In this document: positions 31,809-50,700 of the stretch, one piece after another
Position numbering within the stretch: the stretch's first letter is position 1
How the letters are laid out: every line of letters starts with the position of its first letter
Assembly: GCA_014379345.1 (NCBI GenBank)
Contig: JACMLY010000095.1
Location: forward strand, 1-64,000
Origin: Chitinophagaceae bacterium
GTDB lineage: Bacteria; Bacteroidota; Bacteroidia; Chitinophagales; Chitinophagaceae
Direction: 5' to 3'
DNA: 64,000 nucleotides
Notes under the pieces: model-generated
The model's input: the letters and a program-made list of their open reading frames with translations, nothing else
Told to the model about the DNA's origin: nothing
Databases searched by the model: none
Program-made: the position numbers and the translations under genes

Positions 31809-31848
31809 GTGTCACTTATATTTTAGTCAAAATTGAAGAAATTGTCGG

Positions 31849-31878
31849 CAAAGGTATGCTTGTCAAGAATATTGCCAA
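31849..31878 (-). promoter_or_regulatory. Promoter of grpE-dnaJ
   Basis: On the - strand, TTGG (31878-31875), 18 bases, then TACCTTTG (31856-31849), a perfect TAnnTTTG box with normal spacing. The start of transcription should fall near 31843, about 35 bases before the grpE ATG. No CIRCE-type inverted repeat is visible, so heat control, if any, is not explained by HrcA here. Confidence 0.6.
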
Positions 31879-32400
31879 CCAGTTTTAAAGGTCAAATTGT
31901 CTTAATAAAGGTATTTGGCATTTTGCACGTCAGAATTACGGTTGATCAGTGAGCAGGGTGAAAACCCCGATCAGCTGACAAACAGTTCTTTTATTAATAA
32001 ACCCGGCATGTAAAAGGATCCGATCGTCTACCCTGCTTCAGGTTTCGAATTTCCGATCACAGTTGAATTCAACAAAATACTTATTTGTTAATTTTTTTAA
32101 AGTCTATGCAGCATAACTTAGTGAAATGAAATCTTTAGTATGTTATATTCCTCAACATAATAACTAACGATTGTAAGGAATGTATTGCTTATAACTCTCC
32201 CGATTAGAAATTTTCTATTTAATTGCCATTATATATGAAAACTCTTAGCAATTTTAACTTATCTCTAAAAAACACTGTTTAACCGTTTAATTAATTGTTA
32301 ATTTTATTTATCATTACTAAAGATTTTACGAAATCGTTATAGTTAACGTGATACTAACTGTTCTTCATTAAATAAAACCAACCAACAAAACTCTACAATT
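31879..32400. other. Long AT-rich intergenic region before the susC-like gene
   Basis: About 520 bases between the grpE promoter and the SusC start. No gene, no anti-sigma/ECF pair and no clear TAnnTTTG box facing the SusC gene were found. The last about 250 bases are strongly AT-rich (runs such as TTAATTAATTG) and probably hold the promoter and leader of the SusC operon. Confidence 0.5.
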
Positions 32401-35400
32401 ATGCTTTTAAAATTAACTGCACTTCGGTCGTGGTGGACTGCCTGCCTGTTATTATTCGCCACGATTGCATTTGCGCAACAAAGAACGATCTCCGGAAAAG
32501 TTACTGATGCCAACAACGCTCCTGTTGCCGGCGCAACAGTAGCTGTGAAAGGAGCCAACGTTGCGACACAAACAAATGCCCAGGGTGATTTCTCCCTTTC
32601 TGTACCAGGCAATAATTCAGTTCTGGTCATTTCTTATGTAGGCTTTGAGCAACGTGAAGTAGCCGTTGGAAGTCAAAGCGCTGTTGCCATTAATTTAACC
32701 GCTTCTTCTTCCAATTTAAATGAAGTAGTGGTTACGGGTTATACCAGCCAGCAACGAAGAAATATCGTTGGAGCTGTAGCAACCGTATCCGGAGCTAAGT
32801 TATCGGCGGTACAATCTGGTAACGCCGAACAGCAATTTCAGGGACGTGTTCCCGGTTTGACAGTTATTACTACAGGTCAACCCGGCACAACCAGCCAGGT
32901 GAGAATTCGTGGATTTGGATCTTTCAGTAACAACGAGCCTCTTTATATAGTAGATGGTATACCTACTACTAATATTGATTTTATCAATGGAAACGATATT
33001 GAGAACACAACAGTTCTAAAAGATGCAGGGTCAGCCTCAATTTACGGAGCCCGTGCCGCAGCCGGTGTTATTATTGTTACTACCAAGAAGGGAAAAGCAA
33101 ACGGCAAATTAAATGTTCAATATGATCTGAGTTATGGATATACTGTTCCGGGAAAAGGAGTTGATCTGCTGAGCCCACAGCAACAGGCAGACCTTACCAA
33201 GGAGGCCCTGCTCGCTGCAGGCCAGGTAGCTACTCACCCCCAATACGGCACAGGTACATTTGTATTGCCCGATTATTTAAAAGTTGGTGGATCGTTCGGT
33301 TTATCCGGATTGGCTGCAAATGATCCCAGACTTGATCCTGCATTATTCAATACGAATTTTGAAAAGGGTGCCATTTACCAGGTCATTAGGGCTAATAAAG
33401 CCGGAACGGATTGGTATGATGAATTGACTGAAGTAAATCCGATTCAAAACCATACCCTGGCGATAAGCGGAGGTAATGAAATGGCGAAATACTATGCAGG
33501 TTTCAGCCTTTATGATGAAAAAGGAACGGTGATCAATACTTATCTTAAAAGATATGGATTGCGTTTAAACACTGAATTTAATGTAAAGAACCGCGTTAGG
33601 ATCGGCCAGAATTTCCAATTTACATTCAGAGAAAATCCAAATATTGGTTTTTTCCCTGCGTCGGAGAATTCGATATTATTTGCCCTTACTATCAACCCAT
33701 TAATACCTGTATATGATGAAGGCGGTGGTTTTGCCGGTACGACAGCGCAAGGATTTAATAATTCCAATAATCCTATAGCCGGCCGGATCCGCTCAAAAGA
33801 TAATAAAGGCTATGCTTCAAATATTTTTGGAAATATATATGCAGAGGCGGATCTCACCAAAGACCTTACCTTTCGCACAAGCTGGGGAGGCAATTTCTTT
33901 CAATTCCAGAATCGATTTATTACATATCGCACTTACGAGAATTCAGAAAATACAAATAATAATACGTTTGGTGAGCAAGGGGGAAATGGTGGAGGCTGGA
34001 CATGGACAAACACACTCCGATACGTTAAAGTGTTTGGCGATCATTCACTCACTGCGTTGGGCGGAATTGAAGCTATCAAAGATGGGTATTTCAGATTTCT
34101 TGGTGGAACTGGTTTAAATCCGTTCAGTCTTAGTCCAACATACCTGACCCTCACCAATACGGATCCTACCGGACGTTCTTTGAACAGCGGTGGTAATCCT
34201 TTGAGAAAATTATATTCCCAATTTGCAAAAGTTGATTACCAATACAAAGACAAATACTTATTAACTGCTCTTGTTCGCAGGGACGGTTCTTCCGTATTTG
34301 GTGAAGAAGACAAATACGGTGTATTTCCAGCCGTTTCAGCAGGATGGCGAATCACAGAAGAAAACTTTTTAAATAATGTAAGTTGGATGAATGAGTTGAA
34401 AATAAGAGGAGGCTGGGGAATTATGGGCAATGAACGCCCTGTTGGTTCTGCCAATCGATTCAACTCCATAGGTGGCGGCCCTGGTGCTACATATTATGAT
34501 TTAGGTGGAACCAATACATCTACCTTACCCGGTATCGCTGTTGTAGGTCTGGGAAATCCCAACGCTAAATGGGAAGACAATACCACAGTCAATATCGGCT
34601 TTGATGGTACGTTTTTTAACAATAAACTGGACGTGATTTTTGATTGGTATACCCGTACAACATCTGATTTATTGTACAATCCGGAGCTGCCCGCAACCTT
34701 AGGCACTTCAGCCCCGCCTGTTGTAAATATCGGAGAAATGAAAAATACGGGCATCGATATGATGATCACCTATAAAGGAAATGCCGGTCCGGTTCGTTTT
34801 GAAACCGACCTGATTTTTACAAAGTATAAAAACAGCATTGAGAAAATTGCCGACGGTGTACTAAATTTCGATCGCACATTCTCAGGCAGAATTGGGGGTG
34901 GATTTGTGCGTAACGCGGTTGGCGAACCAGTATCATCTTTCTTTGGATATAAGGTAATAGGCCTTTTCCAGACTGCAGCAGAAGTTGCCGCAGCTCCCAC
35001 TCAGGCCGGTGCTGGTATTGGACGTTTTAGATATGAAGACGTTAATGGGGATAAGGCAATTACTTCTGCAGACCGTGACTATATAGGCAACCCTAACCCT
35101 GATTTTACGTATGGTTTTAATGCGAAAGTCTTTATTAAGAGTTTTGATCTTGAAGCATTGTTTTATGGAGTTCAGGGGGGTGAGGTGTTGAATTTTACCA
35201 GGTGGTTCACGGACTTTTATCCTTCATTTGCGGGAATAGGTAAATCAACAAGGGTACTTGATGCCTGGACGCCTACTAATACCAGTGCAACGATCCCTCG
35301 TTTTGAAAATGTATCGAATGCCAGCACAAATGGAGAATTGAATTCTTATTATGTCGAAAAAGGCTCCTATTTTCGTTTGAGAAGTTTAAAAATAGGATAC

Positions 35401-35598
35401 AATGTTTCTCCAGCTATGATAAGAAGGGCAGGTCTTGAAAAACTCCGTTTCTTTATACAGGGAACTAATTTGTTCACAGCAACCAAATATACTGGTACTG
35501 ATCCTGAGGTAAGTGGTGTTGATACGAACTTCGGCGTTGACATTGGTAACTATCCTGTTAACAGACAATTTTTGGTTGGACTTAGTCTTGCTTTTTAA
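32401..35598 (+). CDS. SusC/RagA-family TonB-dependent outer-membrane transporter
   Basis: A 1065-residue outer-membrane receptor. Signal peptide (LLLFATIAFAQ), then a CarboxypepD_reg-like domain (about 29-105, ISGKVTDANNAPVAGATVAV), the SusC signature LNEVVVTGYTSQQRRNIVGA, the plug with RIRGFGSFSNNEPLYIVDG and ASIYGARAAAGVIIVTTKKG, and a 22-strand barrel ending GLSLAF. With the SusD lipoprotein 40 bases downstream it should form a surface uptake complex powered by TonB. The substrate is unknown. No glycoside hydrolases or peptidases follow, so it is not a typical polysaccharide utilisation locus. Confidence 0.95.
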   Translation: MLLKLTALRSWWTACLLLFATIAFAQQRTISGKVTDANNAPVAGATVAVKGANVATQTNAQGDFSLSVPGNNSVLVISYVGFEQREVAVGSQSAVAINLTASSSNLNEVVVTGYTSQQRRNIVGAVATVSGAKLSAVQSGNAEQQFQGRVPGLTVITTGQPGTTSQVRIRGFGSFSNNEPLYIVDGIPTTNIDFINGNDIENTTVLKDAGSASIYGARAAAGVIIVTTKKGKANGKLNVQYDLSYGYTVPGKGVDLLSPQQQADLTKEALLAAGQVATHPQYGTGTFVLPDYLKVGGSFGLSGLAANDPRLDPALFNTNFEKGAIYQVIRANKAGTDWYDELTEVNPIQNHTLAISGGNEMAKYYAGFSLYDEKGTVINTYLKRYGLRLNTEFNVKNRVRIGQNFQFTFRENPNIGFFPASENSILFALTINPLIPVYDEGGGFAGTTAQGFNNSNNPIAGRIRSKDNKGYASNIFGNIYAEADLTKDLTFRTSWGGNFFQFQNRFITYRTYENSENTNNNTFGEQGGNGGGWTWTNTLRYVKVFGDHSLTALGGIEAIKDGYFRFLGGTGLNPFSLSPTYLTLTNTDPTGRSLNSGGNPLRKLYSQFAKVDYQYKDKYLLTALVRRDGSSVFGEEDKYGVFPAVSAGWRITEENFLNNVSWMNELKIRGGWGIMGNERPVGSANRFNSIGGGPGATYYDLGGTNTSTLPGIAVVGLGNPNAKWEDNTTVNIGFDGTFFNNKLDVIFDWYTRTTSDLLYNPELPATLGTSAPPVVNIGEMKNTGIDMMITYKGNAGPVRFETDLIFTKYKNSIEKIADGVLNFDRTFSGRIGGGFVRNAVGEPVSSFFGYKVIGLFQTAAEVAAAPTQAGAGIGRFRYEDVNGDKAITSADRDYIGNPNPDFTYGFNAKVFIKSFDLEALFYGVQGGEVLNFTRWFTDFYPSFAGIGKSTRVLDAWTPTNTSATIPRFENVSNASTNGELNSYYVEKGSYFRLRSLKIGYNVSPAMIRRAGLEKLRFFIQGTNLFTATKYTGTDPEVSGVDTNFGVDIGNYPVNRQFLVGLSLAF

Positions 35599-35638
35599 AT
35601 TTGAATAATAGTTTTTTTAACGATTCAGAACCTTCAAT

Positions 35639-37399
35639 ATGTTAAACATGAAATATAGCAAATTAAAAATCTTGTCTTTTTTTGCCGTAGCAGCTGTTGT
35701 TACCATGGTGGTAGCTGCCTGTAAAAAAAGCTTTCTCGATCAGCAAACCGTCGGGATTCTTACAGAAACCGAGGCCCAGAGTCTGAAAGGGGCTCAACAA
35801 TTCCTAACCGCTTCCTATGCCGGTATAAAAGGTATCGGATGGGAAGGTGGTGCCAGTAATTGGGTGTATGGAAGTATTGTGGCTGGGGAAGCCAATAAAG
35901 GATCCGATGCAGGTGACCAGGCAGATATCGTTCCAATCCAGCAATTTACAGCCTCTCCTACCAACAATTATTTTAACGTGAAATGGCGCGCGGTATATGA
36001 GGGTGTTGCCCGCACCAATGGCACTATTCGTATTGTAACTAAACTCACGGCTGCAGATATTACTACTGCTGAAAAAAATCAGATACTGGCAGAGGCTCGT
36101 TTCCTTCGTGCCTTCTTCCATTTCGAAGCCAAAAAAATGTGGAATAAAGTTCCTTATGTAGATGAAACAATTGACGTTACAAATGCAAATGTTCCTAACG
36201 ACACAGATATCTGGCCTAAGATCATGGCAGACCTTGATTTTGCCAGAACTACGCTGACTGCTACTAAGTCTGAAATCGGAAGGATTAATAAATGGGGCGC
36301 TATTGCATTTTATGCGAAAGCACTATTATTCCAGGGAAAGTATGCTGAAGCAAGACCGTTATTAACAGATGTCATTACAAATGGCGTTAATTCTGCGGGT
36401 ACCAAATATGCTTTGGCACCAGCCTTTCACAACCTGTTCAATGCTGACTTCGAAAACACGGCAGCGGTGAGAGCTGAAACCATTTTTGCTTATGAGTCAT
36501 CTGTAAATGATGGTTCAGGAGGTGTTAATGCAAACTTCGACCAGGTATTGAACTTCCCTTACAATGGCGGACCCGGCACCTGCTGCGGATTTTATCAACC
36601 CTCCATTGAACTTGTGAATTCTTACAGAACAACTGCACTTGGCTTACCTCTTCTGGATGGATCTTATAATATAGGCGCTAACCAGGTGAAAAATGACCAG
36701 GGAGTCGCTTCAACAGCACCGTTCACTCCTGACGCAGGAACGCTGGATCCAAGACTTGACTGGACTGTAGGCCGCAGAGGTCTTCCTTTCCATGATTGGG
36801 GCCTTCATCCAGGCGCTGTCTGGATTCGCGACCAGGGTAATGGTGGTCCTTATGCGCCAAAGAAAAATGCTTATTATAAAACACAGGAGAAAAAATTAAC
36901 GGATGGTACAAATTGGGCAACCGGTCTTACCGCTATTAATTATAAGTTGATGCGTTTTGCAGATGTGCTATTAATGGCTGCTGAAGCTGAAATTGATGGC
37001 GGAGGTACTCCGGAAAAAGCACGTGAGTACATAAACCTTGTGCGTGCAAGAGCGGCTCAGCCAAGTACTTTCGTTCCCGGAGCAGCTGCTACTTATCTTA
37101 TTGGCTTGTATGCAACACCATTTCCTGATTTAGCAACCGCAAGAAGTGCGGTTCGTTTTGAAAGGAAACTGGAATTGGCAATGGAAGGCCATCGCTTCTT
37201 CGACCTGGTGCGTTGGGGTATAGCAGATGTTGCAATTAATGCATTCCTTACTTATGAGAAAGCAAAATTGTCTGCAGGATACGGCTCTGCTACTTTCACA
37301 AAAGGAAAGCACGAATACTACCCGATACCTCAAAGACAAATAGATTTGCAGGCATCCGGCGGTGCACAAACCCTTGTTCAGAATCCGGGATATCAATAA
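35639..37399 (+). CDS. SusD/RagB-family surface lipoprotein
   Basis: A 586-residue lipoprotein. Signal peptide with lipobox VVAAC and the lipid-modified Cys at residue 28 (ATG 35639; ATG 35648 is an equally good start). TPR-like SusD regions are seen: ILAEARFLRAFFHFEAKKMW, INYKLMRFADVLLMAAEAE, ARSAVRFERKLELAMEGHRF and FDLVRWG, ending in the usual YPIPQRQIDL. It caps the SusC barrel and captures ligand at the cell surface. Followed by a strong hairpin and then a new promoter box, so the genes downstream may be expressed at a different level. Confidence 0.95.
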   Translation: MLNMKYSKLKILSFFAVAAVVTMVVAACKKSFLDQQTVGILTETEAQSLKGAQQFLTASYAGIKGIGWEGGASNWVYGSIVAGEANKGSDAGDQADIVPIQQFTASPTNNYFNVKWRAVYEGVARTNGTIRIVTKLTAADITTAEKNQILAEARFLRAFFHFEAKKMWNKVPYVDETIDVTNANVPNDTDIWPKIMADLDFARTTLTATKSEIGRINKWGAIAFYAKALLFQGKYAEARPLLTDVITNGVNSAGTKYALAPAFHNLFNADFENTAAVRAETIFAYESSVNDGSGGVNANFDQVLNFPYNGGPGTCCGFYQPSIELVNSYRTTALGLPLLDGSYNIGANQVKNDQGVASTAPFTPDAGTLDPRLDWTVGRRGLPFHDWGLHPGAVWIRDQGNGGPYAPKKNAYYKTQEKKLTDGTNWATGLTAINYKLMRFADVLLMAAEAEIDGGGTPEKAREYINLVRARAAQPSTFVPGAAATYLIGLYATPFPDLATARSAVRFERKLELAMEGHRFFDLVRWGIADVAINAFLTYEKAKLSAGYGSATFTKGKHEYYPIPQRQIDLQASGGAQTLVQNPGYQ

Positions 37400-37425
37400 T
37401 AGATTTATATTATAATAATTTTAAG

Positions 37426-37457
37426 CAACAGGGCAGACACAAACATCTGCCCTGTTG
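37426..37457 (+). terminator. 12-bp perfect hairpin after the susD-like gene
   Basis: Arms 37426-37437 and 37446-37457 (CAACAGGGCAGA and its complement) with an 8-base loop, 27 bases after the SusD stop. It is followed by a short T-rich stretch. It fits an intrinsic terminator or attenuator between the SusCD pair and the lipoprotein genes. Confidence 0.75.
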
Positions 37458-37479
37458 TTATTTGACACACCTTATTATC

Positions 37480-37487
37480 TAAATTTG
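37480..37487 (+). promoter_or_regulatory. -7 box TAAATTTG before the ASPIC/VCBS gene
   Basis: A perfect TAnnTTTG box 17 bases before ATG 37505. Upstream TTG elements lie at 22-base (TTG 37455) or 15-base (TTTG 37461) spacing, neither ideal. Suggests that the three lipoprotein genes can be transcribed independently of SusCD. Confidence 0.45.
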
Positions 37488-37504
37488 GTTTGAATTACAT
37501 CGCA

Positions 37505-40500
37505 ATGATCAAATATATTTTTTTGTGGGTACTGGTTAGCGGTTTTGCAGCGTGTGGATTAAGAAATGAACATCTATTTGAAAAACTTGAATCCACTGGC
37601 ACAGGTATTCATTTTAATAACAAGATCACCGAAAATGATTCTGTGAATATTCTGGATATGGAATATGTGTACAACGGTGGAGGAGTAGCTATCGCCGATT
37701 TCAACAATGACAGTTTGCCAGATGTTTTCTTTACTGGCAATATGGTTGCTAACCAACTATACCTGAATGAAGGCAAGATGAAGTTTCGTGATGTTTCAAA
37801 AGCTGCCGGTATTTCGGGAAATAATAAATGGTGTACAGGTGTTGCCACTATAGATATTAATCAGGATGGCATGATGGATCTTTATGTTTGCGCTTCAATG
37901 AAGGACAATGCTGCTGAAAGGGCCAATATGCTTTTTATCAATAAAGGCGCAGGCAAAGATGGCACACCGGTTTTTGTTGACGAGGCTTCAGCGTATAACG
38001 TAGCAGATACCGGCCATTCGACTACTGCCGCATTTTTTGATTACGACAATGACGGCGACCTCGACCTCTATGTTCTTACCAATAAGATGGATAAGGTGTA
38101 TCCAAACCAATACCGTAAAAAGATCATTGATGGCTCTTCCCCAACAACTGATAAGTTATACCGCAATGACTGGGATTCATCCCTTGCTCATCCCCTATTT
38201 ACGGATGTTTCAAAACAGGCCGGCATACTCATTGAGGGTTTCGGATTAGGTCTTAATATTTCCGATATTAACAGGGATGGCTGGAAAGATATCTATGTGA
38301 CCAATGACTTCCTGACCAATGATCTATTATGGATTAATAACAGGAACGGAACTTTTACCAACAGAGCAGGCGATTATTTTAAGCACACTTCCTACTCTGC
38401 TATGGGAAATGACGTTGCCGATATTAATAATGATGGATTGGCTGATATCATCACCGCCGACATGTTACCAGGAACCAATTACAGGAAGAAAATGATGATG
38501 TCTGCAAATAGCTACCAGACAAATCTTAATAACAATGAATACGGTTTCGAGTATCAATATGGCAGAAACACATTGCAACTGAACCTTGGCAATTCGGTCA
38601 ATAAAAATGACTCTTTGAAACATCCCGTATTTGCGGAGATTGCTTTTTATGCAGGCGTTGCCGAAACAGATTGGAGCTGGACTCCTATGGTAACGGATTT
38701 CGACAATGACGGATTTCGCGATCTTATTATTACAAATGGCTTTCCAAAAGACATTACGGATCATGACTTCATGACCTATCGCGCGAACGCCAATAAAATT
38801 GCTTCTAAAGGAGAATTACTGGAGCAGATACCCGCCGTGAAATTACATAACTATGCTTTTCGCAACGATGGTGATTTGAAATTTTCTGATGTAACTGTGA
38901 AATGGGGTCTTTCAGAACCTTGTTTCTCTAATGGTGCTGCCTATGGGGATCTTGATAATGACGGTGACCTGGATTTTATTATTAATAATATCAATGACGA
39001 AGCATTTGTTTATGAAAACAAATCGCCAAATTCTGAAAGAAAGAATAACCATTACCTGCAAATAGATTTTAAAGGATCCCAGCATAATAAAAATGGAATC
39101 GGGGCATGGGTAGAACTATATTATGACAGTAGCAAACGCCAGGTTTACGAAAACTCGCCTTATAGAGGATATCTTTCATCTGTTCAGAATATCGCCCACT
39201 TTGGTTTGGGAAATAATTCGTCGATCGATTCCATCTCCATTAAATGGCCAAATGGAAAAATGCAGATCATGACCGACGTGAAGACAGATCAAAAAATAAC
39301 CGCCGATATCAAAAACGCTTTACTCTCTTACAGCTTTGATCGGTCTCCAAACAATAATACATTGTTTGAAGATGTTACGGAGGAGGTGAATATTGATTAC
39401 CAACAACAGGAAATAGATTTTGCTGACTTTAATATCCAGAAGTTATTGCCTCATAAGCTGTCTGAATATGGTCCGGGCCTAGCCGTGGGAGATATTGACG
39501 GAGATGGCCTTGATGATATCATCTGCGGAGGTTCGTATGGCTATAGTGCTTCTGTTTTTTTACAACAGGCCGATGGTAAATTCATAACGTCCGCGGTTAT
39601 CCCGGATGCGAATCCTAAAAGCAAACCGTGGGAAGATCTCGGCGTTTTATTATTCGATGCAGATGATGACAAAGATCTTGATCTCTACACTGTAAGTGGG
39701 AGTTATGAAAATGCCCCTGGATCAAAATCGTACCTCGATAAATTTTTTGTCAACAATGGCAAGGGTATATTTACGTATGACAGCCTTGCTTTTCCTCAGA
39801 ATGCAACCAGTAAATCCTGCGCAAGAGCTGTTGATTTCGATAAAGACGGCGATCTCGATATTTTTGTTGCCGGCAGGGTTGAACCTTGGAATTACCCTAA
39901 GCCGGTTAACAGCTTTATATATCGAAACGATTCAAAAAATGGAATCTTGCAGTTCACCGATGTTACAAACAACATAGCAAAAGATCTTTCTGGTATAGGG
40001 TTGGTTTGTGATGCAGTGTGGACGGACTTTGATAATGATGGATGGTCCGACCTCATTCTCGCTGGTGAATGGATGTCCGTTACTTTCCTAAAAAATGACA
40101 AAGGGATCTTTAAGAATATCACGGGGCAATCCGGTATAGAAAATGAAATAGGATTTTGGAATAGCATTGCACCGGGGGATTTTGACAACGATGGTGATAT
40201 TGACTATATCATTGGCAATATGGGTCAAAATACTTTTTATCGCGCCAGTAAACAATATCCGGTGAAAATGTATGCCAAAGATTTTGACAATAACGGGAGT
40301 TACGATGCCATTCCATCTTTGTACCTTTTTGATGAGCAAGGTAAAAAACAGGAATACCCGGCCCAGACCCGCGATGATCTTGTTAAACAGATTATTGGCA
40401 TGCGGTCAAAATTTCAAAATTATAAATCGCAAGCGATTGCGACCATGGATAAGCTCTTTACGCCTGAAGAATTAAAAGATGCTTTGGTACTACATGCGAA

Positions 40501-41071
40501 TAACTTTAAAACTTCTTTTATTAAAAATAATGGTGCTGGTAAATTTGAGGTGTTCCCTTTACCCGCATATGCCCAATTTTCTACGATTAATGGAATGGTT
40601 GCAGAGGATTTTGACGGGGATGGTAACCTGGATATTGTCATGAACGGAAATGATTTTGGAACTGAGACTACGGTGGGCCGTTATGACGCACTAAACGGGC
40701 TGTTTATGCGTGGAGATGGAAAGGGGAATTTTGTGTCGACATCAATTGCCGAATCAGGTATTTTCATTCCTGGCAACGGCAAGGCATTTGTTAAACTAAA
40801 AGCTGCAGCCGGAAAATGTTTGCTAGCAGGAGGCCAGAATCGGGGAGCTTTAAAAATATTTAAAAGCAAAAACACCGATCAGTTGATCCCTGTACTTCCC
40901 CTCGAAGTAAGTGCGCTTATCAAATACAAAGATGGCAGAGCACGCAGGGAGGAGATGTATTATGGGGCATCATTTCTTTCACAGTCGGGTAGGTTTTTGA
41001 ATGCAGGTAATAAGATCGGTTCAATTGAATTTATCGATTCAAAAGGCAATAAAAGATTAATCCAGCTATAA
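37505..41071 (+). CDS. VCBS/FG-GAP-repeat lipoprotein with ASPIC/UnbV domain
   Basis: A 1188-residue surface lipoprotein of the CRTAC1-like type. ATG 37505 gives MIKYIFLWVLVSGFAAC, signal peptide plus lipobox; the TTG at 37490 overlaps the promoter region. About 13 calcium-binding loops of the D-x-[DN]-x-[DN]-G type (DFNNDSLPD, DYDNDGDLD, DLDNDGDLD, DIDGDGLDD and others) indicate two beta-propellers. Between them (about residues 510-600) is an ASPIC/UnbV domain (KNGIGAWVELYYDSSKRQ, then SVQNIAHFGLGN and IKWPNGKMQ). Its function is probably binding at the cell surface. No catalytic motif was seen. The haloperoxidase gene begins two bases after its stop, which ties the two together. Confidence 0.88.
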   Translation: MIKYIFLWVLVSGFAACGLRNEHLFEKLESTGTGIHFNNKITENDSVNILDMEYVYNGGGVAIADFNNDSLPDVFFTGNMVANQLYLNEGKMKFRDVSKAAGISGNNKWCTGVATIDINQDGMMDLYVCASMKDNAAERANMLFINKGAGKDGTPVFVDEASAYNVADTGHSTTAAFFDYDNDGDLDLYVLTNKMDKVYPNQYRKKIIDGSSPTTDKLYRNDWDSSLAHPLFTDVSKQAGILIEGFGLGLNISDINRDGWKDIYVTNDFLTNDLLWINNRNGTFTNRAGDYFKHTSYSAMGNDVADINNDGLADIITADMLPGTNYRKKMMMSANSYQTNLNNNEYGFEYQYGRNTLQLNLGNSVNKNDSLKHPVFAEIAFYAGVAETDWSWTPMVTDFDNDGFRDLIITNGFPKDITDHDFMTYRANANKIASKGELLEQIPAVKLHNYAFRNDGDLKFSDVTVKWGLSEPCFSNGAAYGDLDNDGDLDFIINNINDEAFVYENKSPNSERKNNHYLQIDFKGSQHNKNGIGAWVELYYDSSKRQVYENSPYRGYLSSVQNIAHFGLGNNSSIDSISIKWPNGKMQIMTDVKTDQKITADIKNALLSYSFDRSPNNNTLFEDVTEEVNIDYQQQEIDFADFNIQKLLPHKLSEYGPGLAVGDIDGDGLDDIICGGSYGYSASVFLQQADGKFITSAVIPDANPKSKPWEDLGVLLFDADDDKDLDLYTVSGSYENAPGSKSYLDKFFVNNGKGIFTYDSLAFPQNATSKSCARAVDFDKDGDLDIFVAGRVEPWNYPKPVNSFIYRNDSKNGILQFTDVTNNIAKDLSGIGLVCDAVWTDFDNDGWSDLILAGEWMSVTFLKNDKGIFKNITGQSGIENEIGFWNSIAPGDFDNDGDIDYIIGNMGQNTFYRASKQYPVKMYAKDFDNNGSYDAIPSLYLFDEQGKKQEYPAQTRDDLVKQIIGMRSKFQNYKSQAIATMDKLFTPEELKDALVLHANNFKTSFIKNNGAGKFEVFPLPAYAQFSTINGMVAEDFDGDGNLDIVMNGNDFGTETTVGRYDALNGLFMRGDGKGNFVSTSIAESGIFIPGNGKAFVKLKAAAGKCLLAGGQNRGALKIFKSKNTDQLIPVLPLEVSALIKYKDGRARREEMYYGASFLSQSGRFLNAGNKIGSIEFIDSKGNKRLIQL

Positions 41072-41073
41072 TA

Positions 41074-42408
41074 ATGAGAGATTGTTTCAGATCGCTGAAT
41101 GTATTAGTGCACGCATTTATTTACGCGCTTCTGTTTGCATCATGTACTACAAATAAGTCCCGTGCTGATCTGGAGGATACTGAATTGCTTCATCAAAACC
41201 AGAAACAGCTTACGCAGGTTATCATTTATGATGTATTTAGTCCGCCGGTGGCAAGCAGGATATATGCATATACATCGATTGCGGCATACGAAGCAATCCG
41301 GTTTGCTGAAAATGGGTATCCATCGATTGCCGCGCAGCTGCATGATTTCCCCGCTATGCCAAAACCTGAAGAAGGAAAGAAATATAATTATGATCTTGCT
41401 GCAACAAAGGCATTTTTTACGGTAACGCATAAGGTGGTATTCTCCATTGATTCACTCAGGCAATACGAAGAGGATGTTTTTAACCAATTTAAAGAATCTC
41501 TGGATGAAGAAGTATACAATCGTTCGATTGCTTTCGGAGAGGCCATTGGTGCCAAGGTTTTGGAAAGATCTGCCAACGACAACTATAAAAAAACAAGGGG
41601 CATGGCCAAGTACCTGGGCAGTAAAGAAGATGGAAAATGGCAACCCACCTCGCCGGACTACATGGATGGCGTAGAGCCTTTCTGGCGGATGATCAAACCA
41701 TTTGTTCTGGATTCCGCCGGTCAATGCAAAATACCTCCACCGCCGGTATTCAGTAAGGATACCAATAGCGTGTTTTATAAAAATGCCAGGGAAGTATACA
41801 TTATCGGTAGTAATCTTGCAGACTCACAAAAAGTAATTGTTGAATACTGGGATGACAACCCTTTTGTAATGGAGCATAGCGGACATATGATGTTTGCCAA
41901 TAAAAAAATTACTCCGGGAGGACATTGGATGGGTATTGCTGCCGTTGCCAGCAGGAAAGCAAAGGCGGATGTAGTAAAGACAGCGCAGGCATATGCTTTA
42001 ACCGCCATTGCTTTGATTGATGGCTTTATTTCGTGCTGGGATGAAAAATACAGGCATGAAGTGGTACGTCCCATTACCGTTATTCATCATTTAATTGATG
42101 AAAAATGGCAACCCTATCTCCAGACCCCTCCGTTTCCTGAATATCCGAGTGGTCATAGTACCATATCCGCTTCGGCTGCTACGGTTCTTACGCACATTTT
42201 CGGAGAAAATTTTGCATTTCATGACGATAGTGACAAGGAATACATAGGAATGGAAAGAGATTTTACCTCGTTTAACGAGGCTGCGGCCGAAGCGGCTATC
42301 AGTAGGGTTTATGGAGGCATACATTATAAAACAGGCATGGAGGCAGGGGCCGACCAGGGCAAAAGAGTTGGCGCACTTCTTATTGAAAAAGTAAAAATAA
42401 AAGATTAG
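41074..42408 (+). CDS. Vanadium-dependent haloperoxidase lipoprotein (PAP2 superfamily)
   Basis: A 444-residue lipoprotein with lipobox LFASC near residue 24. The vanadate site of haloperoxidases is complete: K325 and R332 (KYRHEVVRP), S-G-H361 (PSGHS) and R411 with H417 (SRVYGGIHY). Spacings K-x6-R and R-x5-H equal those of characterised vanadium haloperoxidases. These enzymes use hydrogen peroxide to oxidise halides; acid phosphatases of the same fold share the site, so phosphatase activity is the main alternative. Being surface or periplasmic, it would act on exported or captured substrate. It lies between two VCBS lipoproteins. Confidence 0.87.
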   Translation: MRDCFRSLNVLVHAFIYALLFASCTTNKSRADLEDTELLHQNQKQLTQVIIYDVFSPPVASRIYAYTSIAAYEAIRFAENGYPSIAAQLHDFPAMPKPEEGKKYNYDLAATKAFFTVTHKVVFSIDSLRQYEEDVFNQFKESLDEEVYNRSIAFGEAIGAKVLERSANDNYKKTRGMAKYLGSKEDGKWQPTSPDYMDGVEPFWRMIKPFVLDSAGQCKIPPPPVFSKDTNSVFYKNAREVYIIGSNLADSQKVIVEYWDDNPFVMEHSGHMMFANKKITPGGHWMGIAAVASRKAKADVVKTAQAYALTAIALIDGFISCWDEKYRHEVVRPITVIHHLIDEKWQPYLQTPPFPEYPSGHSTISASAATVLTHIFGENFAFHDDSDKEYIGMERDFTSFNEAAAEAAISRVYGGIHYKTGMEAGADQGKRVGALLIEKVKIKD

Positions 42409-42484
42409 CCTCGGGTGTTAATTGATCAGTTGTATTCGGTAATGTATTTGTAAAGATCAAATCATTTTTTGGAGATATTGTGGC

Positions 42485-43990
42485 ATGAAAACAATGGTTA
42501 TTGCTTTGGTTTTAGTTTCAGTTGTAGCATCTCTTTTACACTTTGCCAGCTGTAACAGCAACGATCATTCTTTCAAGGATAAAAATATACAGCAAGGATT
42601 TCAACTTTCGCAAAAATATTGCAATACCTGCCATTTATTGCCTGAGCCCGACTTGCTTAATAAAATAACCTGGGCTGAATATGTGCTTCCTAAGATGGGA
42701 GGCATGCTGGGGTTTCAGCGTTTCGCATCTGATTATATTGAACTATCCGACACTGCCCAGTCACTCACCCTTGAACAATGGAAAAATATTGTTCGCTACT
42801 ACGTGTCACAAGCCCCTGAAAACCCGATTGAAAGGTCTGCATCCTCTCCGGAGATTATTACTGAATTGCCTTATTTTAAAATAGAAATGCCGGTTACGAC
42901 CGTTAAAGCTCCCGCTACTACGATGGTTCTGGTGAATACTGATAAGAAAGAAATTGTATTTGCTGATGGAATAACGGAGCATCTCTATATTTTGTCTTCG
43001 GATCGTGTTACAGACTCCGTTAAAATAGGCATTGGTATTTCTGCTTTTCATAGCAATGATTCAGGATTTACTGCTTTGGCAATGGGAGTCTTGCATCCCT
43101 CTGATTCAAAAAACGGCCGGCTTTACCTCGTCGGAAAAGACAGTTCTAAATCCATGATTTTGATCGATAGTCTTCAACGACCGGTACATGCAGGTTATTC
43201 TGATCTCAATAATGATGGTAAGCAGGATATCATTGTATGTGAATTTGGAAATGCAACCGGCCTGTTAAGTTGGTTTGAAAGAAAATCTGAAATAAAATTT
43301 GTAAAACATGTTCTCAGGGCTTTTCCGGGCGCCGTTAAAACCGAAGTGTATGATTTCAACAGGGATGGACGTCAGGATATAATGGCGCTAATGGCCCAGG
43401 GAGACGAAGGTTTTTTTATTTATTATAACCAGGGTAATGCAAATTTCAGGGAACAAAGAATAGTAAGATTATCGCCGTCATTCGGATCGAATTATTTTGA
43501 ACTGGCCGATTTTAACAATGATGGATTTCCTGATATCCTTGCTTCCAACGGAGATAACGGAGATTATCCACCAATAAAGAAAGCATATCACGGTATCCGC
43601 ATCTATCTCAACAACGGCAATAATGAATTTTCTGAAAAAATATTCTTGGCTGTTAATGGTGTCGGCAAGGTGATGGCAAAAGATTTTGATGCGGACGGAG
43701 ATCTGGATCTTGCTTCGATATCTTATTTCCCTGACTTTAAACAAACTCCGGAAGAAAGTTTTATTTTTTGGAGAAACGATGGTGAACTTCATTTCCATCC
43801 CGCTTCATTTGCAGAATCAAGTGCAGGGCGCTGGCTGACAATGGACGCTAATGATATTGATGAAGATGGTGATATCGATATTGTGCTTGGAAATGCAAGA
43901 TTTCCTTTGGGCGATATTCCACCCGAATTGATGAGAAAATGGAATGTATACAGTCCTTCTGTTTTGATTCTCAGGAATACTCTTCACTGA
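42485..43990 (+). CDS. Cytochrome c-type and VCBS-repeat lipoprotein
   Basis: A 501-residue lipoprotein with lipobox FASC (C23). Residues about 40-110 carry one haem-binding motif C46-N-T-C49-H50 and a Met-rich stretch YVLPKMGGMLGF that could supply the distal ligand. The rest is a FG-GAP/VCBS propeller with five calcium loops (DLNNDGKQD, DFNRDGRQD, DFNNDGFPD, DFDADGDLD, DIDEDGDID). A haem next to a propeller suggests a surface electron-transfer or peroxide-linked role. It is the last gene of the haloperoxidase locus, 76 bases after it. Confidence 0.85.
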   Translation: MKTMVIALVLVSVVASLLHFASCNSNDHSFKDKNIQQGFQLSQKYCNTCHLLPEPDLLNKITWAEYVLPKMGGMLGFQRFASDYIELSDTAQSLTLEQWKNIVRYYVSQAPENPIERSASSPEIITELPYFKIEMPVTTVKAPATTMVLVNTDKKEIVFADGITEHLYILSSDRVTDSVKIGIGISAFHSNDSGFTALAMGVLHPSDSKNGRLYLVGKDSSKSMILIDSLQRPVHAGYSDLNNDGKQDIIVCEFGNATGLLSWFERKSEIKFVKHVLRAFPGAVKTEVYDFNRDGRQDIMALMAQGDEGFFIYYNQGNANFREQRIVRLSPSFGSNYFELADFNNDGFPDILASNGDNGDYPPIKKAYHGIRIYLNNGNNEFSEKIFLAVNGVGKVMAKDFDADGDLDLASISYFPDFKQTPEESFIFWRNDGELHFHPASFAESSAGRWLTMDANDIDEDGDIDIVLGNARFPLGDIPPELMRKWNVYSPSVLILRNTLH

Positions 43991-44007
43991 CATTCTTGTT
44001 TCGGGTT

Positions 44008-44195
44008 GCTTGCAATTCGTTGTGTTTTTTGTGTCTTCCTATGTACTCTGTGCATTACCTCCTGTACCTCGGTGGTTAAAAAACGATTGAATTGCAAGAC
44101 GCTTTATTTGTTACACCGATCTAACCACAGAGATACAGAAGGTGGTGCACAGATGCGACGGAGGTATGCACAAAGAGCACGAAGGACAACTCGTA
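44008..44195. repeat. Imperfect inverted repeat of the CCACAGAG type before the rlmI-like gene
   Basis: Arms 44047-44078 and 44122-44153 are reverse complements with about five mismatches in 32 bases. Similar CACAGAG/CACAAAG words continue to about 44190 and to 44021 on the other side. A short outer pair (TTGCAATTC near 44011 and GAATTGCAAG near 44088) also matches. This fills most of the 268-base gap, which has no gene. Confidence 0.7.
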
Positions 44196-44245
44196 CATCA
44201 ACTACTCATTTTTGATCGCATACATGATAAGTCTCATCCGTTCTT

Positions 44246-44253
44246 TACATTTG
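44246..44253 (+). promoter_or_regulatory. -7 box TACATTTG at the rlmI-like start
   Basis: A perfect TAnnTTTG box ends five bases before ATG 44259, so transcription would begin at or next to the start codon, giving a leaderless mRNA. No well-spaced -33 box was found. Confidence 0.4.
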
Positions 44254-44258
44254 CCGTT

Positions 44259-45431
44259 ATGACGGATATTATCCTGAAGAAAAAAATCAGCAATCGTGTA
44301 TTGAACGGCCATCCCTGGATATTTGCCAACGAGATCAACGAATCGGGTGCACAGGTTGAATCAGGAGAGATAGCAGATGTGTATACACACGATAAAAAAT
44401 TTATAGGGAAGGGTTATACTAATCCCAGATCACAAATTTTTGTCAGGCTCTTAACCAGAGACAGGAATGAAGAGATAAACGATGATTTTTTTTACCGTCG
44501 TTTGCTGAGGGCCTGGCAGTATCGGAAGCAGTTGGGATACGATGAAAATTGCCGGCTAATTTTTGGCGAGGCCGATGATCTTCCGCAATTGATCATTGAT
44601 AAATTCAACGATTATTTTGTTGTACAAACCCTGGCGCTGGGTATTGATATATGGAAGCCTTCAATAGTAAGCGCATTGAATAAAATATTCGATCCCAAGG
44701 GCATCTACGAGCGCAATGATGTTCCGGTTCGCGAACTGGAAGGACTTGACCAACGCAAAGGTTTTTTGTCTGAGGCTTTCGATACAGAGATCATTATTCA
44801 TGAGAATGGATTACAATTTTATGTTGATGTTGAGAAAGGACAGAAGACAGGTTATTTTCTGGATCAACAGGATAATCGGAGAGCCATTCAAAATATCGTA
44901 AAAGGGGCCGATGTATTAGGGGCATTTACCTACACCGGTTCATTTGAGATCCATGCGGCTCATTATGGAGCGAAATCTGTATTGGGACTGGATATTTCTG
45001 AAAATGCAGTTGCACAAGCTAATAAGAATGCAGCATTGAATAAATATGAAAATGTGTGTCGCTTTGAATACGCCAACGCATTTGATGTTTTGAAAACCTG
45101 GGCCAGGGAACATAAGCAATACGATGTGGTGATGTTGGATCCTCCATCCTTTACAAAATCGAGGGCAACAATACAGAAAGCGATTACGGGCTATAAGGAA
45201 ATAAATCTGCGGGGAATGAAGCTGGTAAAACCAGGCGGCTTTTTAGTGACCTCGAGTTGTACAAACCTGGTTACCGCGCAGGTGTTTTTAGAAATTATTG
45301 AAATGGCTGCTAAGGATGCAAGAAGAAGGATCAGGCAGGTGGTATTTAATACCCAATCAGCAGATCATCCGATAATCTGGAACCTCGAAAACACGCATTA
45401 TCTTAAATTTCTGATTGTTCAGGTGATGTGA
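44259..45431 (+). CDS. RlmI-like class I SAM-dependent rRNA (cytosine-C5) methyltransferase
   Basis: A 390-residue protein with start ATG 44259 (MTDIILKKKISNRVLNGHPW). An N-terminal PUA RNA-binding domain (about 1-75, NGHPWIFANEI) precedes an EEHEE region and a Rossmann methyltransferase. SAM loop VLGAFTYTGSFEIHAAHYGA, acidic LGLDISENAV, catalytic VVMLDPPSFTKSR (DPPSF) and TSSCTN, whose Cys is the likely nucleophile neighbour. The RlmI family modifies C1962 of 23S rRNA in E. coli; the same role is inferred here. It runs alone on this strand with repeat sequence before and after. Confidence 0.9.
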   Translation: MTDIILKKKISNRVLNGHPWIFANEINESGAQVESGEIADVYTHDKKFIGKGYTNPRSQIFVRLLTRDRNEEINDDFFYRRLLRAWQYRKQLGYDENCRLIFGEADDLPQLIIDKFNDYFVVQTLALGIDIWKPSIVSALNKIFDPKGIYERNDVPVRELEGLDQRKGFLSEAFDTEIIIHENGLQFYVDVEKGQKTGYFLDQQDNRRAIQNIVKGADVLGAFTYTGSFEIHAAHYGAKSVLGLDISENAVAQANKNAALNKYENVCRFEYANAFDVLKTWAREHKQYDVVMLDPPSFTKSRATIQKAITGYKEINLRGMKLVKPGGFLVTSSCTNLVTAQVFLEIIEMAAKDARRRIRQVVFNTQSADHPIIWNLENTHYLKFLIVQVM

Positions 45432-45475
45432 GATGGATGAAGTACGAAGTGCGAAGTACGATGTGTGATGTTTGA
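45432..45475. repeat. Short GAAGTACGA-type repeats after the rlmI-like gene
   Basis: Three to four degenerate copies of GAAGTACGA/GAAGTGCGA in the first about 45 bases after the stop codon. The remainder of the 162-base gap, to 45593, is AT-rich without a gene. Confidence 0.6.
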
Positions 45476-45593
45476 AGGTAGTAAATATGAAATCGGAGTT
45501 TGAAAGAGTATTTAAAGCAAAACAATTACGAATACACAAATTGCCTTAATGTTAAAGGGGAAATTAAAAGACGAACGTTAATTATAAGGAAAG

Positions 45594-46639: not shown

Positions 46640-47686
46640 TCAAAACCTGGGGCAAAGCACTTTATCGCGGCTGGTGTTGTAACGATCGAGAAATGCGATG
46701 TAGGACACCGAAAGTTCAAAACCTCCTCTTCCGCGGCTCGCTGTCTTTAAAGGTGAAACATTCAGATCATAGCTAATAGCTACCGATATGGATTTCATAT
46801 CCATTTTTATTACCGGGATCAGGGCATCTTTAAATCTCAAAAAAGCACCGGCGTATAAAGTATAGGGCGGATTTTCAGGATCATCACCCAACACATGTGA
46901 ATATAATGCGCCCCCTACTGTTTCGGAGAAGGATCCCTGTGAGGAATGATCGGCCTGAATAGTGAAGGCGGAGAAGTCATCAATCTTTAATTTGATGCCT
47001 GTAGAGAAAACATATTTCGCATTCAATTCAATATCCGGATTACGGTAAAAAGAATTTTTTGGACGGTTTACATGATGATATGCGGCTCCAACAAATAAGC
47101 TATTCGATTGATTATTGCCGAACGATGTATTAAAGCTCATTCCAACATTCATATCCCAACTTGTAAAATTTGGAGCTACAAAGGTTTCACCTGTGGGTGA
47201 GGAAGGATCGAATCCTCCGGGACCATATTGGTTGTCGGTTGTCATTTTTGACAAGTCAACGCTTTTTCGAATGATCCCTCCCATAAATCCTAATGATAAG
47301 TACATCAGTTTAGAACTGTTAAGCGACTTATGGTAGTTTAAAGCAGGCATCAGGTGCGTGGAGGCTAAGCCTACTGTTCCTGATTTATCGAAGAGTGCCT
47401 GCACGCCTGCAGTTATAAAATCGTCGCCTCTCTTTACTGGCATTTTATACTCTGCATTGATTGATCCTGTTCTGTACGCATTCGTAAAACTATTCCATTG
47501 ATCGCGGTAAACACCCTGAACACGAATATCTCCTGTATAAATGCCTGCCAGTGAAGGGTTGCGTAACAATGGAGCTTCAAAAAATTGTGAGAAATGAATG
47601 TCCTGCGAATACGAAGAGGCAGATATCGATATTACTGACAATACTGTTGTCAGGCATCGTTTAGTAAAAGCCACATGATTGCTCAT
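46640..47686 (-). CDS. PorP/SprF-family type IX secretion membrane protein (second copy)
   Basis: A 348-residue outer-membrane protein. The start is put at ATG 47686 (MSNHVAFTKRCLTTVLSVIS), which gives a signal peptide ending SSYSQ and avoids overlap with the gene upstream; ATGs at 47695 and 47707 are alternatives. Mature start DIHFSQFFEAPLLRNPSLAG and YRDQWNSFTNAYRTGS are family signatures. It follows the large PKD adhesin by 25 bases, so it is its probable secretion partner. It resembles the PorP-like protein at 11.3-12.5 kb in the family motifs. Confidence 0.88.
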   Translation of the reverse strand: MSNHVAFTKRCLTTVLSVISISASSYSQDIHFSQFFEAPLLRNPSLAGIYTGDIRVQGVYRDQWNSFTNAYRTGSINAEYKMPVKRGDDFITAGVQALFDKSGTVGLASTHLMPALNYHKSLNSSKLMYLSLGFMGGIIRKSVDLSKMTTDNQYGPGGFDPSSPTGETFVAPNFTSWDMNVGMSFNTSFGNNQSNSLFVGAAYHHVNRPKNSFYRNPDIELNAKYVFSTGIKLKIDDFSAFTIQADHSSQGSFSETVGGALYSHVLGDDPENPPYTLYAGAFLRFKDALIPVIKMDMKSISVAISYDLNVSPLKTASRGRGGFELSVSYIAFLDRYNTSRDKVLCPRF

Positions 47687-47711
47687 AACACACATTTTAC
47701 AAACCATATAA

Positions 47712-50700
47712 TTAGCGTAGCAACGTAACGTTGCCTTTAATGGGAACAATCTCTCCGTTCTCACAGAGGTATTCAATAATATATACATAGGTATCCGAGC
47801 TGGACGGCCTTCCCTGGTGCACTCCATTCCAGCCTTCCGAAATGCTATTTACCATAAAATTTTTCTTCTCAAACACAATCTGGCCCCATCTATTAAAAAC
47901 ACGCATCGACTGTATCCGGTCTATAGAAGAACCCCGCGGGTAGAAAACATCATTCACGCCGTCTCCGTTGGGAGTAAAGGTGTTGGGCACAAAGTAATTT
48001 TTGTTGTTGCAAACAACACGGACGGTAACATCGCTGTTAGCCCTGCACCCATTACTGTCGGTGACACTCACTTTATACCTCGTGGTAAATTTCGGGTTTG
48101 CATACGGAACTGCACAATCAATACAGGTTAAATTATTACTTGGCGACCAGCTATACAGTCGTATATTATTGCTATAAGTTACCGGCAGGTCAATGCCTGT
48201 ACCCACCGGGATCACCGGATCAGGGCCCATTGTGATTACGGGCAATGGGGCAATGACGATATCCTTGCTAAATGATTTTTTACATCCTAAACGGTTAGCC
48301 GCTTCGAGAGAAATTTTGTAGGTGCCTGTTTGCGTATAAATAGACGACACATCCTGCGCCGACGAATTTTTGCCATTGCCAAAATTCCAGGCCCATGTAA
48401 TGGCCGTATCGGCAAATGCAAGGTTGCCATTAAAAAGAACAGGAGTATTGATACAGGCAATATCCAAACTGGTGATAGATGGATCGGGCGTTCTATATAC
48501 TTTAATGGTATCTACCAATACACTGTTACAACCAGCCTGTGTGGTGACATTTAATGAAACGGCATACTGATCCGGTGCGGCAAAATAGTGCGTGGGATCC
48601 TGATCGGTTGATGTATTTCCATCGTCAAAATTCCAGACTGAAGAAGTGATAGGGTCATTGGCGATTGTGTAATTGGTAAAAAATACAGCACCGGAATCAC
48701 AGAATTCTTTTCTATCCCTGGCAAAATTCGGAATGGCGCCTAGCACTTTGATCACCTGCGGTCCACTGACGCTGGCAATGCATCCGAGATTATCATACAA
48801 TAATAATGAAGGGTAATAGAAATTTGGAGAGCTGTAAAAATACGAAAAGGTCTTTGCCTGCGAAGTATCAAGTAAGCCATCACCATAAAAAAAAGTAAAT
48901 CTTGTTTGAGGAGGAGTTACAATTGAAAAATCTACATTCAGCGAATTACAGGCATCCAGCGGGCTATACGTTAAACTGGAAGTGGCTGGAGGATTATAAA
49001 TATTTACGGAATGCGAACTCGAATCTTCGCAACCACCATAGCCAATCAAATACAACTTTGCCGTAAATGAGCCGTACGTGTTATAGAAATGGGTGGGATC
49101 TTGCAAGGTTGATCCGGCACCATCTCCAAAATCCCAGGAGAAAGATTCATAATTCTGTCCCAGGTTGAAAAATTTCGTTTCTAATGGGGGACAAATTGAA
49201 ATTGTATCGATAGCGTTGAATGCAGCTTTCGGATACCTGATGTCCACAAAATTTATTCTTGTAAGAGAATCCGTACATCCAAAAGCATCGGTAATTTTTA
49301 GTTTTACACTATAGGTGGCATCTGCACCTGTGTATGCATGTGTTGGGTTTTGTAATGTTGAATTTGCTCCATCGCCAAAATTCCATAAATAATTCAAACT
49401 GTATCCCTGTGATGAATCTATAAACTGCAAATTCTTTCCCTGGCAATAAATGGTATCTGTAGCACCGAAAAAAGCCAGCGGCCGGGATATGATCACAATG
49501 CTGTCTTTCAGCAGTGTATCGGTACAGCCATTAATGTCCTGCACTATCAGTTTCACTGAATAAGTGCCGGTATCTGCATAGGTATGTGTGAAAGGAGGAG
49601 CCGTAAATACGCGAATAATGCTGTCTCCAAAATCCCATGTCCATTTAGAAATATTCACTGCCGAAGTAGTTAGATCATTAAAAGTTACGGCTTTGCTTTG
49701 GCAGGTTCCGGGAACAGCAGGGTTAAAATCTGCAACCGGGCCAACAACAGCAATGAACCCGGAAATGATGGCGGTATCCGTACAGCCTCCATATTTGTTT
49801 GTGACAATCAATTCAATGTCATGGCTTCCATTGGTGGTAAAACTGGTATCGAAAGTTCGTCTTCCGGTAAATATGGTTCCATTTCCAAGACGCCATTGAT
49901 ATTTAGTAATTTTCGTGGTGTCTCCACCGGCAGTCAGGGTAAACCGCTCATTTTTACAAACGCTTCTTTTAGATGCCGTAAAATTGGCTGTTTCATAAAT
50001 TAATGAAACGGCTTTAGTGTAAGTATGGGTAGGGCAACCGGCAGCGCTCGGGCTTGGATCTGTTACAGTAAGGCTCACATTATAAATTCCAGGACCCGGA
50101 AAATTAAAGGTGGGCGATATGGCAGTTGATGTTCCCAAACCTGCGAAATTCCAGGAATAGGTGACCGGGTTACCAGCAATGACAATGGATTTGTTTATAA
50201 AATCAACCGTGTATTTATTAGCACAATCCAACACAGTATCCTGAAATCGCGAAACCGGCGGAACAATTTTTATGTAATCAGGTTTTGTCACTTTCAAACG
50301 GCAACCATTGTTATAACCTGTTAAACTCACAGAAAGAGTTCCTGTATCAGCAAAACCATGCACCGGATTTTCCAAAGTATCAGTTGTTCCATCACCAAAA
50401 TCCCATAACCATTTCGTGGAAGGGGTGGCAAGGCTTGTAAAACGAAAAGAATCAGAAGCACAGCCTATAAATTTATCTGCTGTAAAATCAACAAAGGGCA
50501 ATGTGCCAACTTTTACTCCATTTGGAAAGCTGGCAGTTTCTGTACATCCCCCGATGGTAGTAATCGTCAATGTGAGTGTATAATTTCCCGGAGTGTTATA
50601 CGTATATGATGGGTTAACACCCGTACGGGTTGAACCTGGTCCATCACCAAAATCCCATAAATACGCAGCCACACCATCCACTGCGCTGATGTCGGGAACC

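Follow-up and report, generated by a model that had tools for sequence, protein, structure and literature searches.

A SusC-SusD locus with a predicted vanadium haloperoxidase and two propeller lipoproteins in a Chitinophagaceae bacterium, and its recurrence in Bacteroidota

To our knowledge, it is not settled what vanadium haloperoxidases do for bacteria in nature, and ZgVIPO1 of Zobellia galactanivorans (PDB 4cit, 4usz), whose iodoperoxidase activity was reportedly described by Fournier et al. in 2014, is the one biochemically studied member of its lineage. The iodoperoxidase label is also used for this enzyme in PMC5064120. Stable complexes of SusCD importers with lipoproteins and an enzyme have a reported precedent (PMC7618045). 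Here we analyse a stretch of 64,000 nucleotides (the window), positions 1 to 64,000 of contig JACMLY010000095.1 of a Chitinophagaceae bacterium (GenBank assembly GCA_014379345.1), in which an importer of this type and a vanadium haloperoxidase (VHPO) are encoded by neighbouring genes:

32401-35598, plus strand: SusC/RagA TonB-dependent outer-membrane transporter (TIGR04056, E 4.7e-239; Plug; CarbopepD_reg_2)
35639-37399, plus strand: SusD/RagB lipoprotein lid (SusD_RagB, PF07980, E 2.5e-47; lipobox VVAAC)
37490-41071, plus strand: VCBS1, an UnbV_ASPIC/FG-GAP lipoprotein with a CRTAC1-like beta-propeller (Pfam; PDB 9etn)
41074-42408, plus strand: VHPO, a lipoprotein and vanadium haloperoxidase of the ZgVIPO1 type (match to 4cit/4usz; conserved vanadate site)
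42485-43990, plus strand: VCBS2, a lipoprotein with a mono-haem c domain and an FG-GAP beta-propeller (CxxCH, Met71, predicted model)

We tentatively propose, at a little under an even chance, that this is an uptake locus of the SusCD type in which a vanadium haloperoxidase replaces the glycoside hydrolase as surface enzyme. SusC and SusD would capture and import a ligand. VCBS1, a large propeller lipoprotein found with the peroxidase in all but a few loci of the window's clade, would be the partner that binds or acts as a scaffold at the surface. VHPO, held by its lipid anchor, would use hydrogen peroxide and a halide, most likely iodide or bromide, to produce hypohalous acid at the cell surface, and VCBS2 would contribute a haem-c redox centre. 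The weakest step is that the oxidant would modify or liberate the imported ligand, such that VHPO would act on the same substrate that SusCD imports. The proteins are presumed to lie at the surface and may form a physical complex. An initial annotation of this DNA had offered a similar interpretation, which overall is partly supported by our analysis; for signal quenching, its alternative role for the locus, we found no specific support.

Open reading frames and domain searches locate the five genes on one strand exactly where that annotation had put them, with the 2 bases between VCBS1 and VHPO and the 76 bases between VHPO and VCBS2 that it gave. The TIGR04056 and PF07980 matches identify a tandem SusC-SusD pair, and lipid-anchor cysteines are present in four of the proteins, the number for which it had read lipoboxes (within VVAAC in SusD, C22 in VCBS1, C24 in VHPO and C23 in VCBS2). 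The Pfam search returned no STN domain in SusC, and FecIR-type signalling through this transporter was rejected on that ground. Domain searches of the stretch from SusC to the RlmI gene found no gene for sugar or protein degradation.

The assignment of the fourth gene product as a haloperoxidase is well supported by its homology to the ZgVIPO1 type. Residues 15-441 of the 444 in VHPO align with 4cit/4usz at E 7.3e-126, the next solved VHPOs follow at E 1e-10 or worse, and identity to ZgVIPO1 is about 45%, as taken from a 98%-identical copy of that enzyme (locus L157) which is 45% identical to the window protein. The predicted vanadate-site residues (K325, R332, S359-G360-H361, R411 and H417) are all present. 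Among 105 aligned VHPOs, K325, R332, G360, H361, R411 and H417 are invariant, and position 359 is Ser in 91, Cys in 10 and Ala in 4. The anchor C24 is invariant in 27 of 27 aligned sequences; in a larger set with uncurated start codons, a looser regular-expression lipobox pattern matched 84 of 104 VHPOs. Judged by this homology, the putative haloperoxidase of the window probably oxidises iodide or bromide with peroxide. The ten VHPOs with Cys at 359 are those of loci L031-L037, L039, L092 and L093, eight of which belong to a clade associated with GH65 and trehalase genes.

PAP2 phosphatases share the K-R-SGH-R-H site, and the Pfam match of VHPO is indeed PAP2 (E 8.5e-11), VCPO_2nd reaching 26.1 bits against a cut-off of 27. 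The lipoprotein might then be a phosphatase in vivo, dephosphorylating a surface ligand before import by SusCD, and loci of other clades do carry trehalase together with a sugar kinase. However, the match to a crystallised vanadium haloperoxidase, at about 45% identity, spans the full length including the N-terminal half, W322 is invariant, and F354 is found in 102 of the 105 sequences, all of which makes a phosphatase improbable in our estimation.

In VCBS1, an UnbV_ASPIC domain (PF07593, E 1.2e-22) follows FG-GAP repeats (PF13517), and the protein matches CRTAC1 (PDB 9etn) at E 3e-15 by sequence and E 4e-25 by fold; its predicted model (predicted local distance difference test score, pLDDT, 80) is weaker than that of VCBS2. 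Its open reading frame starts with TTG at 37490, but the ATG at 37505 gives a better signal peptide by eye and is probably the true start. The anchor cysteines C22 of VCBS1 and C23 of VCBS2 are each invariant in 19 of 19 aligned sequences. The haem c read in VCBS2 is borne out by the motif C46-x-x-C49-H50, invariant in the alignment (CxxCH in 35/35 VCBS2 genes of 24 loci), and by Met71, the predicted distal ligand, at least 90% conserved. Pfam matched FG-GAP in this protein and no cytochrome domain. The AlphaFold model of VCBS2 (pLDDT 86) has N-terminal helices followed by propeller strands and is nearest in fold to CRTAC1 (9etn) and integrin propellers, while a PDB sequence search gave nothing significant (9etn, E 0.02).

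The annotation had proposed a search for the neighbourhood beyond this genome. A pattern-based scan of species genomes with VHPO, which used short peptide patterns and represents a sample, yielded 53 stretches and 33 relatives; two of these 33 loci are short Nocardia matches (L040, L041; 27-30% identity), which were excluded from the locus counts. VHPO was found at E 1e-120 or better in 27 of 147 sampled genomes of the same family, its own included. Flanks were read for 32 of 34 family rows (two own rows omitted) and 40 of 68 phylum rows, and for 13 loci more upstream DNA was added. Both Chitinophagaceae and Sphingobacteriaceae have the neighbourhood, and a multi-VCBS form occurs in further Bacteroidota families; the lack of conservation that the annotation would have counted against its reading is thus not borne out. 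Flavihumibacter, Flavisolibacter, Daejeonella, Mucilaginibacter and metagenome-assembled genomes have SusC-SusD-VCBS1-VHPO in this order, and in many cases VCBS2 precedes or follows VHPO; 9 of the 11 Mucilaginibacter loci carry VCBS2 twice. We take as the window's clade 42 loci with a VHPO at least 52% identical, a set with at least one duplicate (L015 and L099 have identical VHPOs) and some loci cut by contig ends, and as a run genes on the same strand with gaps below 400 bases. By this definition the run includes VCBS1 in 40 of the clade loci, SusD in 34, SusC in 32 and VCBS2 in 24, and VCBS1 lies immediately upstream of VHPO in 28. One more full locus, SusC-SusD-VCBS1-VCBS1-VHPO, was found in L147, which the open-reading-frame filter kept out of these counts and those of the 60 lower-identity loci considered below; a VCBS1-VHPO fusion suggested there by a 1622-codon open frame was rejected, the two reading frames being separate.

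In a sample of 296 Bacteroidota genomes, VHPO is present in 50 (E 1e-100) and VCBS1 in 86 (E 1e-150), and all 50 VHPO genomes carry VCBS1 (hypergeometric p 1e-33, a value that ignores relatedness). A tree of the 105 VHPOs, from which open reading frames below 380 residues were left out, places the window protein in a set of 42 rows (support 99) and in a set of 47 rows (support 100), the latter dominated by SusCD plus VCBS1 loci (37/47). The VHPO of L157 shares 98.4% of 433 aligned residues with ZgVIPO1 and, like that of the window, directly follows VCBS1-type genes, here three on the same strand; thus, the studied member of the lineage shares this kind of neighbourhood.

Additional genes accompany VHPO in some relatives. 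A DUF1573 lipoprotein gene (Pfam of one) lies between VCBS1 and VHPO in seven loci (L083, L085, L088-L090, L092, L093), and thioredoxin-like genes join L010, L012, L014 and L098 as well as L107, L111, L156 and L169. In these last four a different haem-c protein, with a weak Cu2_monoox_C match, precedes VCBS1-VHPO and parallels the haem-c VCBS2. The haem-c propeller of the window, together with the DUF1573 and thioredoxin-like partners in relatives, fits extracytoplasmic redox chemistry.

The homology to ZgVIPO1, the conserved neighbourhood, the co-occurrence of VHPO and VCBS1, the haem motif and the precedent for SusCD complexes speak for an uptake locus built around the peroxidase. Against it, only 34 of the 60 lower-identity VHPO loci have VCBS1 in the run, with SusC in 10, SusD in 8 and VCBS2 in none; in many of them, which are multi-VCBS versions, SusCD lies outside the stretch first read. 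Of the 13 VCBS-VHPO loci extended upstream, 10 have a same-strand SusC-SusD pair adjoining the VCBS genes, which again favours the proposal, and in three (the Zobellia-like genome, L183 and L184) SusCD lies behind an opposite-strand gene, in the Zobellia-like genome at least 12 kb upstream of the VCBS block. Even among close VHPOs, L100 and L101 have VCBS1 without a visible SusCD, and L086 and L102 have no recognised partner. Furthermore, the genome of the window holds 11 full or near-full VCBS1 copies (two short matches omitted) in 8 loci. That all of them lie beside SusC and/or SusD is in favour of the proposal, and that VHPO was seen in only one of the eight is against it. This one is a lower bound, since contigs C164 and C172 end right after VCBS1, and on C28 and C77 the contig begins with the VHPO gene. 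Nevertheless, VHPO is clearly an optional partner of a more general SusC-SusD-VCBS1 unit. The nearest paralogous unit, on contig C57 (SusC 42%, SusD 44%, VCBS1 55%), is without VHPO and lies downstream of GMC oxidoreductase and PD40-propeller genes. VCBS1 paralogues stand in tandem in the SusC loci of C42 (L047; three copies) and C164 (L046; two copies), with no VHPO in the stretch read, which on C164 is cut by the contig end; one of the C42 copies has 2 TAA inside the match.

The junction between SusD and VCBS1 provides additional clues on how the locus might be expressed:

37425-37466, plus strand: terminator-like hairpin with a 13-bp stem (37425-37458), an 8-nt loop and the tail TATTTGAC (hairpin scan, folding)
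37455-37487, plus strand: weak candidate for TTG-N17-23-TANNTTTG, which we take to be the Bacteroidota-type promoter motif; one of 8 plus-strand matches in the window

A strict hairpin scan with mononucleotide shuffles was used, the relaxed version having a background of about 50% after SusD. With it, a hairpin with a T-rich tail was found in 42 of 44 SusD-VCBS1 junctions of related loci (the exceptions are L087 and L097) against 53 of 220 shuffles, and at background elsewhere (SusC-SusD 8/45, VCBS1-VHPO 6/56, VHPO-VCBS2 2/15, VCBS2-VHPO 1/7). The T tail of the window hairpin is weak. Since the stems vary in sequence between genera, it is position and structure that are conserved, not sequence. 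Six further SusCD-VCBS1 units of the genome were examined; the hairpin is present in four (C57, C7, C42 and C139) but not in C164 and C172, and its occurrence in units without VHPO indicates a feature of the SusCD-VCBS1 architecture in general and not of the peroxidase. Such conservation speaks against one uniform transcript level across the five genes, and expression probably differs between the import module and the oxidation module: the hairpin would split SusCD from VCBS1-VHPO-VCBS2, with SusCD probably in excess. Enrichment of TANNTTTG was not above chance, matches in sigma-70 and terminator consensus scans were at chance level, and no Rfam element reached the gathering score.

The annotation further stated that no sugar-degrading enzymes accompany the locus. 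This holds for the window locus and nearly so for its clade, where a same-strand GH65 or trehalase (GH37) gene occurs in none of the 42 loci, but not for other VHPO clades, where one occurs in 18 of 60 lower-identity loci (Pfam of representatives). Within the window's clade we found an opposite-strand GH65 in L100, part of a neighbouring tandem VHPO locus, one GH92 (L087), and GH2 downstream of VCBS2 in six Mucilaginibacter loci. Elsewhere, L170, L173 and L176, from one genus, have the order VCBS1-VCBS1-VHPO-x300-MFS-PfkB with a trehalase three genes on, and 11 tree rows with GH65 or trehalase but without VCBS1 just upstream require only one change in the tree (support 100). In the 296-genome sample, trehalase and VHPO genes start less than 10 kb apart in 10 of the 27 genomes that have both (8 genera), where about 0.19 would be expected for 4.5-Mb genomes. 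These data support an association, in relatives, between VHPOs and the use of disaccharides, one that does not transfer to the window locus from sequence. A second type of VHPO locus, (GH65)-x186-VHPO, mostly joined by x365, x312 and another, divergent VHPO and often followed by a trehalase, comprises L031-L036, L039, L105, L112, L174, L175 and contig C27 of this same genome (L050); the full-length trehalase of the genome starts 8.8 kb from a VHPO of this type.

In an alternative scenario the enzyme guards the meal or detoxifies peroxide: VHPO would take hydrogen peroxide released by plants or algae, or formed when the cell itself oxidises sugar, and convert it around the feeding site into a halogen species that is biocidal or less harmful, and SusCD would import an unrelated sugar that the oxidant leaves untouched. 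The GH65, trehalase, MFS and PfkB neighbours in other clades speak for this scenario, as do the proximity of trehalase and VHPO just described and the DUF1573 and thioredoxin-like genes of some loci. A Zobellia vIPO3 is reported to rise on Ascophyllum and is discussed with algal defence (PMC9296495), and haloperoxidases have been proposed as enzymes of oxidative stress in soil (PMC4926216). However, none of the 42 loci in the window's clade has these sugar enzymes on the same strand, and the most constant partner of VHPO is a propeller lipoprotein of a SusCD locus, which points to an uptake complex and not to a free protective enzyme. We hold the protective scenario to be possible, though on balance unlikely.

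The nearest characterised enzyme being an iodoperoxidase, VHPO might also serve to capture halogen, oxidising iodide to HOI/I2 that would either enter the cell or be bound to an organic carrier for import through SusCD. Against this, the locus occurs in genera such as Mucilaginibacter and Flavihumibacter, whose soil and freshwater habitats hold little iodide, and the cassette has no iodine-handling gene; we consider halogen capture a distinctly minor possibility. The same proposal has been made for iodine uptake in Arenibacter C-21, in which iodine accumulation requires glucose, O2 and Ca2+, glucose oxidase and a haloperoxidase are proposed to act together, and at least five ZgVIPO homologues are encoded (PMC5064120). 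This strain offers a physiological parallel to the locus, not proof.

The site of the cassette was compared with that of three congeners:

31809-45593, no strand assigned: cassette of the five genes plus RlmI, which three congeners lack between grpE and the 45594-45971 gene

In all three (genomes G081, G433 and G434; loci L200, L201 and L202) grpE directly adjoins the homologue of the 45594-45971 gene, and so the cassette was either gained here or lost in the others. On its own, this absence would favour a chance adjacency of unrelated genes in this genome only; yet this gene order is found again across numerous genera and families, which refutes it and leaves such a coincidence with a negligible probability. 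A recent foreign origin was rejected on composition, as the G+C content of the cassette (0.410) matches its flanks (0.422 and 0.415), and no convincing direct repeats were found at the cassette borders. Outside the five-gene run, the window also encodes a LysM/glucosaminidase protein (26339), an M32 peptidase (52930) and a 1705-residue TPR-CHAT protein (54581-59698), and the region is flanked by two pairs of PorP/SprF and large PKD/CHU_C proteins, related to type IX secretion (11332-16195 and 46640-52166).

The retention of importer and haloperoxidase genes side by side in many Bacteroidota suggests that feeding is combined with surface halogen chemistry. A broader version of the uptake proposal, which we think doubtful, is a phylum-wide class of oxidative uptake in which a surface VHPO, fed by peroxide and held on SusCD by CRTAC1-like propellers, would open or tag a ligand (a glycoside, humic or aromatic compound) for import; if true, iodoperoxidases of the ZgVIPO1 type would serve nutrition and not halometabolite synthesis or defence. 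Should the coupling prove functional, Bacteroidota of soils and seas would tie halogen chemistry to nutrient uptake. The association with SusCD and an ASPIC propeller, found also beside a near-identical ZgVIPO1, and with trehalase or GH65 in other clades, supplies concrete partners and testable substrates. In the literature, SusD and VHPO homologues are mentioned, but separately (PMC5064120), and a search that left most subscription papers outside, and is thus weak evidence, found no link of VHPO with SusCD, VCBS, polysaccharide-utilisation loci or trehalose in Bacteroidota. The post-SusD hairpin, the absence of the cassette in congeners and the clade-specific trehalase/GH65 association are new.

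Among known systems, ZgVIPO1 resembles the window VHPO over its full length and in its vanadate-site residues, and the Zobellia-like genome differs in having three VCBS1 genes, a separated SusCD and no VCBS2 in the 39 kb read (L157, L182). Polysaccharide-utilisation loci and outer-membrane utilisomes (PMC7618045) likewise have SusC-SusD followed by at least two lipoproteins, one of them an enzyme; in the window, by contrast, this enzyme would be a haloperoxidase, and the other lipoproteins are VCBS/ASPIC propellers. Unlike SusCD polysaccharide-utilisation loci, the window locus is without glycoside hydrolase, sulfatase or protease. BtuG, too, is a beta-propeller. Vitamin B12 uptake by BtuB-BtuG (PMC10404256) similarly pairs a TonB-dependent transporter with a surface lipoprotein, to which the window locus adds predicted redox enzymes. 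Finally, CRTAC1 (9etn) is the best match of VCBS1 in sequence and fold and that of VCBS2 in fold, whereas the window proteins are bacterial lipoproteins of other length and VCBS2 bears an N-terminal haem-c domain.

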